This document shows, piece by piece, positions 15,803 to 20,687 of a stretch of DNA of 64,000 nt. The notes under the pieces were generated by a model. That model saw only the letters and a program-made list of their open reading frames with translations, had not been told where the DNA came from and did no database searches. The stretch spans positions 1 through 64,000 of the forward strand of contig WFNB01000068.1 of the NCBI GenBank assembly GCA_015488755.1, in the 5' to 3' direction. This stretch comes from Gammaproteobacteria bacterium (GTDB lineage Bacteria; Pseudomonadota; Gammaproteobacteria; GRL18). The position numbers and the translations under genes were made by a program. Every line of letters begins with the position of its first letter. Position 1 is the stretch's first letter.

Positions 15803-17056
15803 TTAAGCGCTCTCTGCTTTTTTATCGTACCATTTTTTAACTTCTTCATCCCACCCGTCCATACGAACGTAGGAAGATTGGCGTGGTTCAGTGACCATAT
15901 TGGGATCCAGTTCAAGGCCAATGCCTTCAAGGTAATTGACCAAGCCGATACGCTCAATCATTTCACCTGTACGTTCATGCTCTAAGGCATTCTCAGCGAA
16001 GAAATCAATCATTTCACCTGTTAATTCAACCAGTGTTTCAATCTCTTCCATGGTATCAACTTTCATGAAAGGTGCTACCACAGTGCCCATCATATCACCG
16101 ATTTTCAGTGTCCGTTTGCCACCGATAAGAATGGTAACACCGGTATCATCACCAGGCGCTAATGCTTTGGTCATAACATTAATACAATGCATACAGCGAA
16201 CACATTCTTTATTATTAACATTCAGAGTATTATCATCATTCAGCTTAATGGCATTGGATGGGCAACGATCAGTGACATTATCAATCACATAATCACGCCC
16301 CTTTGCTTCAACAAAGGCCTTAACCTCTGCTTGATCAACTTTCATATCATCACGCCAGATACCAATAACGGCCATATCGGCTCGTTCAATTGCATTAGTG
16401 CAATCATTAGGGCAACCAGATACTTTTATTTTCCACTTATAAGGCAAAGCGGGACGATGCAAATCATCTTGAAATTCATTAACCAAATGACGCATTAAAC
16501 CTTGCTCGTTAGTGCAAGAATGTTCACAGCGAGCAGCACCGACACAGGCCATAGCAGTTCGTACACAGGGGCCCGCACCACCTAAATCAAAACCATAGGA
16601 GTTAAGTTTGTCAAAAAATGGTTGCATTTGTTCAGTGCTGGAACCAATAAACATAATATTTCCGGTTTGACCATGGAATGTTTGTAAGCCAGAACCGTGT
16701 TTTTCCCAATCATCAGCTAATTGATTTAATATATCAGCACTATAGAAATTACCAGCAGGGGGCTGAATACGTACGGTGTGAAATTCTTTTGATTCTGGAA
16801 AATGTTCTGCTACCTCTGAGAAGCGTGGAATAATACCACCCCCATAACCAAAGACAGAAACAGTACCGCCTTTCCACCAGCCCATACGAGTTTCATAGGA
16901 GTGTTCTAATTGACCGAGAAGTCCGCTGACCATAGAATTAATTCGTTGATCAGGGTGGTCATCTCTGAGGCGTTTAAATGCCGAGATAAAGCTGGGCCAT
17001 TCACCATTTTCTAGTTCATCCAGCATAGGTGTGTCATAGATTTTTACTTTAGGCAT
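15803..17056 (-). CDS. dsrA: Dissimilatory sulfite reductase alpha subunit (orphan DsrA)
   Basis: 417 aa, the usual DsrA length. DsrAB carries sirohaem-[4Fe-4S] centres and in sulfur oxidisers runs in reverse, oxidising stored sulfur to sulfite in the cytoplasm. Present are the siroheme/cluster cysteines in CVGAARCEHSC and GCPNDC, and the inserted ferredoxin domain (DRCPSNAI...CVRCMHC). The start has a strong GGAGG site 6 nt before ATG. Normally dsrB follows immediately in a dsrABEFHCMKLJOPN operon. Here a terminator follows after 24 nt, then an unrelated cyclase gene on the same strand. No dsrB is in this window. The frame is intact, so it is probably functional with a DsrB encoded elsewhere. 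Confidence 0.93.
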   Translation of the reverse strand: MPKVKIYDTPMLDELENGEWPSFISAFKRLRDDHPDQRINSMVSGLLGQLEHSYETRMGWWKGGTVSVFGYGGGIIPRFSEVAEHFPESKEFHTVRIQPPAGNFYSADILNQLADDWEKHGSGLQTFHGQTGNIMFIGSSTEQMQPFFDKLNSYGFDLGGAGPCVRTAMACVGAARCEHSCTNEQGLMRHLVNEFQDDLHRPALPYKWKIKVSGCPNDCTNAIERADMAVIGIWRDDMKVDQAEVKAFVEAKGRDYVIDNVTDRCPSNAIKLNDDNTLNVNNKECVRCMHCINVMTKALAPGDDTGVTILIGGKRTLKIGDMMGTVVAPFMKVDTMEEIETLVELTGEMIDFFAENALEHERTGEMIERIGLVNYLEGIGLELDPNMVTEPRQSSYVRMDGWDEEVKKWYDKKAESA

Positions 17057-17563: not shown

Positions 17564-19021
17564 ATGCCAATGAAAAATTTACCTACTACTTTTCCCGACT
17601 CAATTCCTAAGGAGGAAGAGCCGGTACACCTGAAAAAAGAGGACATATCTAAGCCTTCTTGTGATGATTTAATTAATATTTTTAATGACCCTTTCGTTAT
17701 TATTGATCGCCATTATCAAATTGTGGCCTCAAATAAAGCCTATCAGGCTAATTTCCACTCGTTGGATCAACTTGAAGGGAAATTTTGCTATGAGGTCTCT
17801 CACAATTATGATTTACCTTGTAGCCAACATGGTGAGCACTGCCCTTTAGAAACAGTTTTGCGTACCGGTAAATCAACCAGCGTGTTGCATATCCATAAAC
17901 ATGGTGGTGAAGAAGAGCATGTGCAAATTAGTGCTAGTCCTATTCACAATGATCGAGGTGAAATTCATTATATGGGTGAAACCATGGTGACGATTACTCA
18001 GGAAGAAAAAGATCCTCAGTTACTCATTGGTCGAACACCTGCTATTTTGCGTTTAACCAGTATTTTGCATCGTGTAGCACCGACTCAGTCCACTGTTTTT
18101 ATTGAGGGTGAAAGTGGTGTGGGTAAAGATTGTGTGGCAAATTATATCCATCATTTTTCTAAGCATAGTGGTAAGCCGATGATTGTTGTCGATTGTGGTG
18201 CTATTGGTGAAACATTAATTGAAAGTGAATTATTTGGTTATGAAAAAGGAGCTTTTACCGGAGCAAATAAGCAAAAAATTGGTTTAATTGAAGCTGCCAA
18301 TGGTAGTACTCTTTTTATTGATGAAATTGGTGAATTATCATTAGATTTGCAAACTAAATTACTAAGAGTACTTGAAAGTGGTACCATCCGCCGAATTGGT
18401 GGCACTCATTATTTTGATGTTGATGTGCGCATTATTGCTGCGACTAATCAAGATGTTAAAAAAATGGTCAGTCAGGGGACTTTTCGACAAGATCTCTATT
18501 ACCGCTTAGCAACGTTTCCTGTACTTGTCCCTCCATTACGGGATCGCAAGGCAGATATTCCAGCAATTGCAGAGCATTTTTTACGTAAAATAGAAGATGG
18601 AAAAAAACACATTCCTTTGCGTTCTGATATTATCAATATCCTTTGTTCTTATAATTTCCCCGGCAATATTAGAGAATTACGTAATATTATGGAACGGGCA
18701 GTTATCTTATCAGCAGGTGATCCGATTACTGAGGAACATCTCACTATTGATAAAAGCCCTCATCATGTGCTTGATAATGAATTTGATGATGCTGATATCG
18801 AAGACTTTCCTTTGGTATCACATAGAACGTCACAAAGTGCTTTGCAGAGACAAGCAGCCTCTAGTCATGGTGCGGTAAAAAAATCTCGCAAACCAAATTT
18901 AGAATTAATAAAACAGACTTTGGAGCGTCATGGTGGACATCGTTTATCAGCAGCTCAGGAACTGGGTATTAGTGAGAGAACGCTCTATCGTTATCTGCAA
19001 AAAATTGATGTAATGAAATGA
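17564..19021 (+). CDS. PAS-domain sigma-54 enhancer-binding protein
   Basis: 485 aa. A PAS sensor (about 33-145) is followed by an AAA+ sigma-54 activation domain (about 155-390) with Walker A GESGVGKD, the sigma-54 contact loop GAFTGA and Walker B TLFIDEIGE, then a Fis-type helix-turn-helix (about 445-482, SAAQELGISERTLYRYL). The PAS carries a cysteine set, CYEVSHNYDLPC then CP, which I recall from regulators of sulfur-metabolising bacteria and which could sense sulfur species or redox (inference). Divergent from dsrA; the two sigma-54 small-RNA candidates lie directly downstream, making them plausible targets. Confidence 0.88.
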   Translation: MPMKNLPTTFPDSIPKEEEPVHLKKEDISKPSCDDLINIFNDPFVIIDRHYQIVASNKAYQANFHSLDQLEGKFCYEVSHNYDLPCSQHGEHCPLETVLRTGKSTSVLHIHKHGGEEEHVQISASPIHNDRGEIHYMGETMVTITQEEKDPQLLIGRTPAILRLTSILHRVAPTQSTVFIEGESGVGKDCVANYIHHFSKHSGKPMIVVDCGAIGETLIESELFGYEKGAFTGANKQKIGLIEAANGSTLFIDEIGELSLDLQTKLLRVLESGTIRRIGGTHYFDVDVRIIAATNQDVKKMVSQGTFRQDLYYRLATFPVLVPPLRDRKADIPAIAEHFLRKIEDGKKHIPLRSDIINILCSYNFPGNIRELRNIMERAVILSAGDPITEEHLTIDKSPHHVLDNEFDDADIEDFPLVSHRTSQSALQRQAASSHGAVKKSRKPNLELIKQTLERHGGHRLSAAQELGISERTLYRYLQKIDVMK

Positions 19022-19039: not shown

Positions 19040-19203
19040 AAAAAAAAACCCAATCAAAAATCTTAAGCTGATTTCTCAGGAAAAGGCGATTGGGCAATTC
19101 TGACAACAAAAATGTTAAACTCTAATATGAAGAAAACTCGCTCATATTAGTTTCTCAACTAAAACGAAATAAGAGTGTAAACTCAGACACATCCCGTTCT
19201 TAT
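19040..19203 (-). ncRNA. Candidate sigma-54-dependent small RNA 1
   Basis: About 160 nt. Predicted start near 19203, 12 nt after a GG-N10-GC promoter. Three hairpins follow in order: a 5' stem (AATAAGA/TCTTATT, plus inner GTGT/ACAC, 19168-19204), a 9-bp stem CTAATATGA/TCATATTAG (19122-19150), and a terminator stem CCCAATC/GATTGGG (19049-19055 with 19088-19094) enclosing a GAAA-capped mini-hairpin and followed by nine U (19048-19040). It runs antiparallel to and stops 19 bp before the end of the activator gene. No open reading frame of note. Target unknown. Confidence 0.65.
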
Positions 19204-19213
19204 TCTTATATAA

Positions 19214-19230
19214 AGCAGTATTTGTGCCAA
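19214..19230 (-). promoter_or_regulatory. Sigma-54 promoter of small RNA 1
   Basis: TTGGCACAAATACTGCT on the minus strand: -24 GG and -12 GC separated by exactly 10 nt, with the TTGGCAC half perfect. The -12 half is TGC rather than TTGC. Confidence 0.65.
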
Positions 19231-19307
19231 CCAAATAAATATATCTATCCTATTGTTTTTTCTATTGTTTTCTGTCCTGACTTAAAAATTATAGGAGGGA
19301 AATCACT

Positions 19308-19365
19308 TGTCATGACACAAAAAAGAAAATTTCAAATACTATGACATGTCACTGTCATGTCATAG
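19308..19365. promoter_or_regulatory. Palindromic TGTCA/TGACA sites upstream of small RNA 1 promoter
   Basis: TGTCATGACA at 19308-19317 is a perfect palindrome centred about -109 from the predicted start. CTATGACATG (19339-19348) and CATGTCATAG (19356-19365) form a 10-bp inverted repeat with 7-nt loop, centred about -149, containing several TGTCA half-sites. Spacing fits upstream activator sites of sigma-54 enhancer-binding proteins. The second palindrome lies in a longer imperfect hairpin, 19326-19377. Confidence 0.5.
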
Positions 19366-19429: not shown

Positions 19430-19614
19430 AACCTGAACTCTGGATAAGATGATCTTGAAAATAACTTCAGAGTGTTGATTAGCCTGTATTTGTGGAAGAA
19501 GTCTCTTTGGCATGGATGCCAAAGTGACGCCTACAAGGATGTATTCACGGCGACTTTTGTAACAAATGCAGGCTGATTAATACGTTACTTATTCAGTTAT
19601 CCAGAACTCAGGTT
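19430..19614. mobile_element. MITE-like element, copy 1 (185 bp)
   Basis: 185 bp bounded by 18-bp terminal inverted repeats (19430-19447 and 19597-19614, two mismatches). Inside are nested inverted repeats and a central CTTTGGCA/TGCCAAAG hairpin, so the whole folds back on itself. No coding capacity. A possible 4-bp ATTC direct repeat flanks it. The copy at 33096-33280 is the same length, in inverse orientation, about 93% identical by eye. It sits between the two small-RNA units. Confidence 0.8.
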
Positions 19615-19678: not shown

Positions 19679-19802
19679 AAAAAGGTACGGCAAAACGGAG
19701 GGTCGCTTGCCGTACAAGAGCTTACACTATTGAGAAAGAAGATGCCTAGTTTGAAAAGGGGAACTCAGCAATCAACTTTCTAACTATTCATAAATACTAT
19801 AG
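19679..19802 (-). ncRNA. Candidate sigma-54-dependent small RNA 2
   Basis: About 124 nt. Predicted start near 19802, 12 nt after a near-consensus sigma-54 promoter. A 6-bp pairing (19776-19781 with 19733-19738) encloses a C-rich single-stranded stretch (CCCCTTTT). The terminator is a perfect 9-bp stem GTACGGCAA/TTGCCGTAC (19685-19693 and 19707-19715) followed by five U. The 13-nt terminator loop contains CCCTCC, complementary to a strong Shine-Dalgarno sequence. No significant reading frame. Target unknown; anti-ribosome-site pairing is inference. Confidence 0.65.
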
Positions 19803-19812
19803 ACTTTAATGT

Positions 19813-19829
19813 AGCAACGTATGTGCCAA
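19813..19829 (-). promoter_or_regulatory. Sigma-54 promoter of small RNA 2
   Basis: TTGGCACATACGTTGCT on the minus strand, matching TGGCAC-N5-TTGC exactly with GG-N10-GC spacing. This is the best sigma-54 promoter in the window. Confidence 0.8.
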
Positions 19830-19931: not shown

Positions 19932-19959
19932 TTTGACATTGTTTTGCCAATTTTGACAT
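19932..19959. promoter_or_regulatory. TTTGACAT direct repeats upstream of small RNA 2 promoter
   Basis: TTTGACAT at 19932-19939 and 19952-19959, 20 bp apart (two helical turns), at about -131 to -157 from the predicted start. They share the TGACA half-site with the palindromes upstream of small RNA 1. Confidence 0.4.
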
Positions 19960-20018: not shown

Positions 20019-20687
20019 TTATTTTTGTGTGATATCAAATGCTACCATTTTATCTGCGAGTGTTGACCAATTAAGATCTCGCATCACTTTTGCCATCTGG
20101 TGCATACCACCTGTTTTTATCATTCGACGACGCTCGGCTTTATTTTTGACACCATAAAATGGCAACATAATCGTAAAGGCATCATCCTGATAGTGTTTAA
20201 TTGGAGTTAGGACATCTTTCCTACGTGTGTAATAAGCATCCTCACCCTCACTACAGGCTTTATTGAACACATTAAAACTCCGACAAGCCATCGGGCGGAC
20301 GGGATGGATACTACAGCTATTATTCAATAAAAAAGGGCAAGACTGTAGAGAATCAAGATGCTTTAATTGTGTTATCAGATCGTTACGTAGAGTGTTGCCA
20401 AGCTTATTGCTTGCTACTCCGAGGACTTCTATCGCATACCAAGACATACCCATTAATTCTAATGGATAGACGGGAATGGTTTCATGAGATTTGCAACAAG
20501 TGGCACAGCCTTGGGCGCACGCTAATATTTTTCCCTGTTTTTCTTCACGTTTAATGGCTTCACTGATCCCTTGATCAGTCACATAATAAGCATCCATTAA
20601 AATACTTAGCCAAGGTAGACGCTGTTCATAAGATGAAAAAGTAATACGCTGAGGTGGTGGGTAAGCGGTTGATGTTGTTTGCTTCAT
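20019..20687 (-). CDS. YkgJ-family cysteine-cluster protein
   Basis: 222 aa, soluble. The N-terminal CAQGCATCC and downstream C-x7-C / CRSF-x5-C cysteines match the zinc or iron-chelating YkgJ/UPF0153 family of unknown function. It starts 17 bp downstream of ftsX on the same strand, so is probably co-transcribed with ftsE-ftsX. No terminator lies directly after it. Confidence 0.75.
   Translation of the reverse strand: MKQTTSTAYPPPQRITFSSYEQRLPWLSILMDAYYVTDQGISEAIKREEKQGKILACAQGCATCCKSHETIPVYPLELMGMSWYAIEVLGVASNKLGNTLRNDLITQLKHLDSLQSCPFLLNNSCSIHPVRPMACRSFNVFNKACSEGEDAYYTRRKDVLTPIKHYQDDAFTIMLPFYGVKNKAERRRMIKTGGMHQMAKVMRDLNWSTLADKMVAFDITQK

Follow-up and report, generated by a model that had tools for sequence, protein, structure and literature searches.

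What is encoded in the gap of 1 kb that separates a sigma-54 activator gene (17564-19021, plus strand) from a YkgJ-like gene (20019-20687, minus strand) in the window, by which we mean the whole 64,000-nucleotide stretch of DNA analysed here? A preliminary description had read one part of this gap as a small RNA transcribed from a sigma-54 promoter, and we find the unit, hereafter sRNA2, on the minus strand exactly where it had been placed. According to our comparison of species, sRNA2 is almost certainly a real and previously undescribed bacterial small RNA. For the fuller reading, that it is a genuine sigma-54-dependent sRNA under the adjacent activator and most likely a trans-acting repressor operating via its C-rich core, we would give a probability of about 0.6. 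What the comparison establishes, at the level of sequence, is a conserved promoter, a conserved core, a paired stem and linkage to the activator and to a twin RNA, sRNA1; transcription of sRNA2, binding of the activator, use of Hfq, pairing and repression are what we infer.

The -24/-12 promoter of sRNA2, TTGGCACATACGTTGCT, lies at positions 19829-19813 of the minus strand. It had been described as matching the sigma-54 consensus almost fully, and the match turned out to be full: this is the sole zero-mismatch occurrence of YTGGCAYN5TTGCW in the 64-kb window. Matches with up to two mismatches are found there at chance level (55 versus 48 expected), and exact TGGCAYN5TTGCW occurs 10 times in the own genome of 3.5 Mb against 3 times for the reversed control. 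Single-genome statistics for sRNA2 are weak, and it is the cross-species comparison which is decisive, as far as sequences can decide. The exact consensus stands upstream of the sRNA2 core in 15 of 15 species, all of them related sulfur oxidisers, and its N5 spacer takes 10 different forms among them, which argues that both boxes are under selection and do not merely reflect recent descent. Other exact sigma-54 promoters of the own genome (C68:83011, C68:69193, C66:16018 and C107:9781) precede genes that we named by inspection as SoxY-like, YeeE/YedE-like, molybdopterin-oxidoreductase-like and glutamine-synthetase-like, and sigma-54 may therefore broadly serve sulfur and respiratory genes in this organism.

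From this promoter, a transcript of 124 nt (19679..19802, minus strand) is predicted, starting about 12 nt after the GC of the -12 box, in agreement with the length and spacing proposed earlier, and ending at the U run. The predicted length varies from 48 to 142 nt among the 15 species; the body between promoter and core drifts from one species to another, and promoter and terminator are kept as a pair in all 15. At the lower extreme stands the Bathyaustriella symbiont, where the predicted sRNA2 consists of the 48-nt core only and its predicted start falls on UGUAAGCUCUUGU. In the window, 125 nt of sRNA2 fold better than 199 of 200 shuffled sequences (-30.8 kcal/mol, z -3.5). No conserved open reading frame was found in sRNA2 across the 15 species, and this, together with the pairing of promoter and terminator and the drift between them, supports the original reading of a sigma-54-dependent small RNA. 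We considered and rejected a hidden peptide, the longest closed reading frame being of 14 codons and not conserved. A reading frame within the core was rejected as well: in the first genus it is mostly third positions that change, yet the frame reaches the U run without meeting a stop, and it is broken in the second genus.

The conserved 3' core of sRNA2 (19679..19728, minus strand), as delimited by an alignment of 16 copies and 52 columns, comprises the single-stranded UGUAAGCUCUUGU and the terminator hairpin. The terminator stem, GTACGGCAA paired with TTGCCGTAC, is a perfect 9-bp one, followed by a run of five U; both elements had been pointed out in the preliminary description, and the hairpin ends at 19679. 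The predicted fold extends the stem to 12 bp with a bulge and displays the loop ACCCUC. A simple terminator scan missed sRNA2 because the 9-bp stem closes a 13-nt loop and the limit of the scan was 8. Mean column identity of the core is 87%, and 97% of stem cells are paired, compared with 21-56% in slid controls; two stem pairs show double, pair-preserving changes (C-G to U-A and A-U to U-A). The UGUAAGCUCUUGU stretch and the loop are close to invariant. ACCCUC (19698..19703, minus strand), which we regard as a candidate seed against GAGGG-type ribosome-binding sites, is kept in all 16 copies as the stem varies, and gives sRNA2 the conserved C-rich apical loop characteristic of C-rich-loop sRNAs; in the second genus the stem has been rebuilt and the loop is still AACCCUC.

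Using 181 bases as query, we recovered the 3' part (about 50 nt) from 14 further species belonging to the same family, with identities of 86-98%, and a search with the activator protein led to 13 named MAG contigs, including that of the symbiont of the worm Bathyaustriella thionipta. With the covariance model of the sRNA2 core (R1), 15 of 24 genomes from the order give a hit, and a sample of about 270 further gammaproteobacterial genomes gives none. Two extra copies occur in the genome GLR18, a second one preceded by a sigma-70-like promoter and a third that has decayed; this points to the core being a module in its own right.

The unit conserved across relatives consists of dsrA2, the PAS-AAA+-Fis activator, sRNA1 and sRNA2. 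The first of these, a second dsrA (15803..17056, minus strand; TIGR02064, 585.7 bits), is divergent from the activator gene and adjoins it in relatives; it is kept together with the activator and has no dsrB alongside. Another dsrA of the own genome (C81:23913-25124) is accompanied by an adjacent dsrB-like gene. Between sRNA1 and sRNA2 the window contains an inverted-repeat element (19430-19614) with 18-nt arms and 149 nt between them, which is probably an inserted repeat; its centre bears a weak resemblance to Rfam Ysr224 (24.3 bits versus a gathering threshold of 70). The distance between the promoters of the two sRNAs is 599 nt in the window and 284-496 nt in relatives.

The twin, sRNA1, has a predicted length of 164 nt in the window (19040..19203, minus strand) and of about 155-175 nt in most species, and ends in a terminator stem CCCAATC/GATTGGG followed by a U run. 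Its sigma-54 promoter, TTGGCACAAATACTGCT (19214..19230, minus strand), reads TGGCAY-N6-TGCW at the corresponding place in 15 of 15 species. The gap thus holds, as had been claimed, two promoter-to-terminator units on the same strand, the terminator of this one being near 19040. The further claim that such an arrangement is unlikely by chance is borne out by the conservation in 15 species and not by single-genome shuffles. The two RNAs are unrelated in sequence, and the sRNA1 model (R2) matches the same 15 genomes as sRNA2. An alignment of sRNA1 from 14 species contains 9 pairs with compensatory changes. Upstream of the sRNA1 promoter there is an A-rich element, AAACAATAGGATA (19246..19258, minus strand), possibly an IHF site; most species have it near position -30 relative to TGG, four of them as a perfect WATCAANNNNTTR. 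IHF matches anywhere in the sRNA region are not above chance, and it is the fixed position alone that argues for such a site.

Which protein would open these promoters? The adjacent activator combines, by Pfam and NCBIfam, a PAS_4 domain, an AAA+ domain with GAFTGA and a Fis-type helix-turn-helix. It is 77-84% identical over 12 species with GAFTGA invariant, and its orthologues share 73-85% identity in the N-terminal part and 65-83% in the helix-turn-helix. An orthologue is present in the genomes with the sRNAs (15 of 24) and in no other of the order, the gene in G022 being cut by a contig end; the co-occurrence of sRNA1, sRNA2 and the activator should be counted as one event and not three, because the parts are adjacent. 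Within the PAS domain, C75, H80, C86, H92 and C93 (residues 75-93 of the protein encoded at 17564-19021) are invariant, which hints at a set of metal or redox ligands. The AlphaFold model of this domain was too poor (pLDDT 48) and was left out of interpretation.

Enrichment of TGWCA, along with a scan of the own genome, points to candidate activator sites. TGWCA occurs 88 times upstream of sRNA1 versus 2.8 in shuffles (15 species, 1,500 nt) and 36 times versus 2.7 upstream of sRNA2 (15 species). For sRNA1 the candidate sites, with no strand assigned, are TGTCATGACA (19308-19317), TGACATGTCA (19342-19351) and TGTCATGTCA (19353-19362). The candidate half-sites of sRNA2, TGTCAAAATTGGCAAAACAATGTCA (19934..19958, minus strand), are weaker and less palindromic than those at sRNA1; candidate sites upstream of sRNA2 are weak in some species, and none were seen in G013. 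Both features expected of a sigma-54 sRNA, upstream candidate activator sites and an AAA+ activator with GAFTGA, are present here. Palindromes of the type TGWCATGWCA are found upstream of sRNA1, at the promoter of the activator itself and before a NapC-type cytochrome gene. Among the relatives, the ten that were read have TGTCATGACA immediately after the -10 box of the activator gene, and in the window this copy has decayed; such a position suggests negative autoregulation.

We propose that the PAS domain may sense a signal, upon which the activator would bind the TGWCA-type sites and open the sigma-54 promoters of sRNA1 and sRNA2. Intrinsic termination would then release sRNA2, whose working part, in our model, is the 3' core with its single-stranded UGUAAGCUCUUGU and the hairpin displaying ACCCUC. 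It would act most likely in trans and probably with Hfq, the hfq gene being present in the own genome, the loop ACCCUC(C) pairing with G-rich (GAGGG-type) ribosome-binding sites of mRNAs and so lowering their translation. A strict search for loop targets, GGAGGGTN2-9ATG, in five genomes gave about 98 places and no orthologous gene shared between them; GGAGGGT before ATG was no commoner than the reversed control in four of the five genomes, the exception being G009 (19 versus 6). The mRNA of dsrA2 was rejected as a target: the window has GGAGGGC as its ribosome-binding site, where AGGAGGAC, AGGAGAG or AGGAGAC stands in relatives, and the duplex is no better than with shuffled sequences. Pairing of sRNA2 with the activator leader was also dismissed, as it is striking only in G004 (L022) and near zero elsewhere; there the leader (L022:3880-4060) is complementary to the sRNA2 core at -34 kcal/mol (z -6), which could be either species-specific feedback or chance.

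Several known systems resemble this arrangement. GlmY of Enterobacteriaceae, a sigma-54 sRNA encoded beside the gene of its activator QseF (GlrR), has several activator sites and is assisted by IHF (PMC6075780); sRNA2 is likewise predicted to be a sigma-54 sRNA near its own candidate activator gene with several upstream candidate sites, but QseF is a response regulator that recognises TGTN12ACA, whereas here we deal with a one-component PAS activator and sites of the TGWCATGWCA type. In Pseudomonas, CbrB drives CrcZ and CrcY through multiple subsites and IHF, and this sigma-54 activator also drives protein-coding operons (PMC6296734), while CrcZ works by binding Hfq (PMC4063720), by way of CA motifs. 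Two sRNAs under one sigma-54 activator, a candidate one in our case, is the common feature; unlike in that system, sRNA2 has at most one CA motif and the two RNAs are unrelated in sequence and stand side by side. Qrr sRNAs of Vibrionaceae under LuxO/SypG, with their TGGCA-N7-TGC promoter and upstream activator sites (PMC10162802), share with sRNA2 the promoter type and the upstream candidate sites, but the activator here has a PAS domain and not a receiver domain. As to the mode of action, there is a likeness to sX13 of Xanthomonas, whose three C-rich hairpin loops are of a kind to pair with G-rich motifs close to translation start sites (PMC3771888), and to further C-rich-loop sRNAs such as RNAIII of Staphylococcus and HPnc5490 of Helicobacter; sRNA2 has a single C-rich loop, situated in the terminator hairpin, and its pairing is a predicted one. 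Rfam gave no gathering-level match in the window and, with E allowed up to 5, none for the transcript of sRNA1 or that of sRNA2, GlmY/GlmZ, Qrr and CrcZ included. We thus rate sRNA2 as an undescribed family within the sigma-54-controlled, probably base-pairing sRNAs. A literature search returned nothing on point for sigma-54 sRNAs in sulfur oxidisers, no sRNA work on these uncultured sulfur-oxidising bacteria and animal symbionts, and no precedent for a sigma-54 sRNA circuit tied to reverse-dsr metabolism.

Could a less elaborate explanation account for the same conservation? An efficient terminator alone would be expected to keep its stem and U run, and the promoter might then drive a short RNA with no regulatory role. 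But ACCCUC and the single-stranded stretch are nearly invariant though a terminator needs neither, the bases of the stem change in pairs while the loop does not, and no gene lies between promoter and terminator, so that we hold this explanation to be very unlikely. Still less probable, in our opinion, is that processing of a longer transcript of the upstream gene leaves the segment as its 3' end, with an incidental sigma-54 match, the alternative that the preliminary description had itself named as refuting. It is true that YkgJ is on the same strand and that its end lies 190 nt upstream, with no listed terminator in the interval. However, neither YkgJ nor FtsX stands beside sRNA2 in any of the relatives with a readable flank, where PolB, a ZnuA-like protein, a LytTR regulator and others (named by sequence inspection) are found instead, and yet the exact promoter is kept in 15 of 15 species; as upstream neighbours differ, read-through from YkgJ is not a conserved source of the RNA.

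Two other alternatives accept sRNA2 as an RNA and dispute its regulator or its role. The sRNAs might be driven not by the adjacent activator but by another sigma-54 activator with a similar helix-turn-helix, given that a second PAS-activator of about 458 aa is encoded in many genomes and that G003 and G019 have the cytochrome sites with no close orthologue of the adjacent activator detected. We consider this improbable: the sRNAs are never found without the adjacent activator, whose helix-turn-helix shares 65-83% identity between species and whose own promoter carries the palindrome. It is also conceivable, though on balance we doubt it, that sRNA2 is a decoy which titrates a protein or another sRNA, as in GlmY/RapZ or CrcZ/Hfq, and not an antisense regulator. 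Two sRNAs under one activator do recall CrcZ/CrcY and GlmY/GlmZ, and the hairpin is the most conserved part of sRNA2. Against this, across the 15 species each sRNA2 contains no more than one AANAANAA CA motif (0-1 per RNA) and no ANGGA (0-2 in sRNA1), which rules out both a CrcZ-type Hfq sponge and a CsrA sponge of the CsrB/RsmZ type; there is no Rfam match, and the duplex with sRNA1 is not above that of shuffled sequence, for which reason pairing between the two RNAs was rejected. A repressor pairing in trans through the ACCCUC loop is the reading that we prefer.

The analysis adds two undescribed sRNA families together with a candidate activator, a candidate binding site and a core sequence, and offers concrete testable predictions for the 5' end of sRNA2, its dependence on the activator and the loop seed. 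Beyond the locus, intergenic palindrome clusters of the own genome are found ahead of the gene for a NapC/NirT-family cytochrome, which has a sigma-54 promoter of its own, and ahead of a gene with a CZB domain. Of the orthologues of this NapC-type cytochrome gene with more than 68% identity, most are preceded by the palindromic sites with the sigma-54 promoter; of the paralogues at about 50%, none is. For the sites in G003 and G019, a second activator, or a block missing from the assemblies, must be allowed. The links of this system with dsrA2 and with the NapC-type cytochrome suggest that it controls the flow of sulfur and of electrons. We may even speculate, and only with low confidence, that one PAS activator commands an RNA-centred regulon in marine sulfur oxidisers, in which two unrelated sRNAs and a NapC-type cytochrome mRNA, with a conserved leader hairpin bearing a C-run loop, would together re-tune electron transport and sulfur oxidation post-transcriptionally.

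The 5' leader of the NapC/NirT cytochrome gene itself contains a conserved hairpin-like element with ACUGCGUCCCCCCCUGCAGA (L105:1222-1440, corresponding to C112 of the own genome; also L112, L114, L117, L119 and others). It has no match in Rfam and is possibly a riboregulator or a third C-rich RNA. The gene with the CZB domain, a zinc-binding chemoreceptor domain (L101:1360-1640; C96 of the own genome), is preceded by several palindromic sites located upstream of a sigma-70-like promoter.
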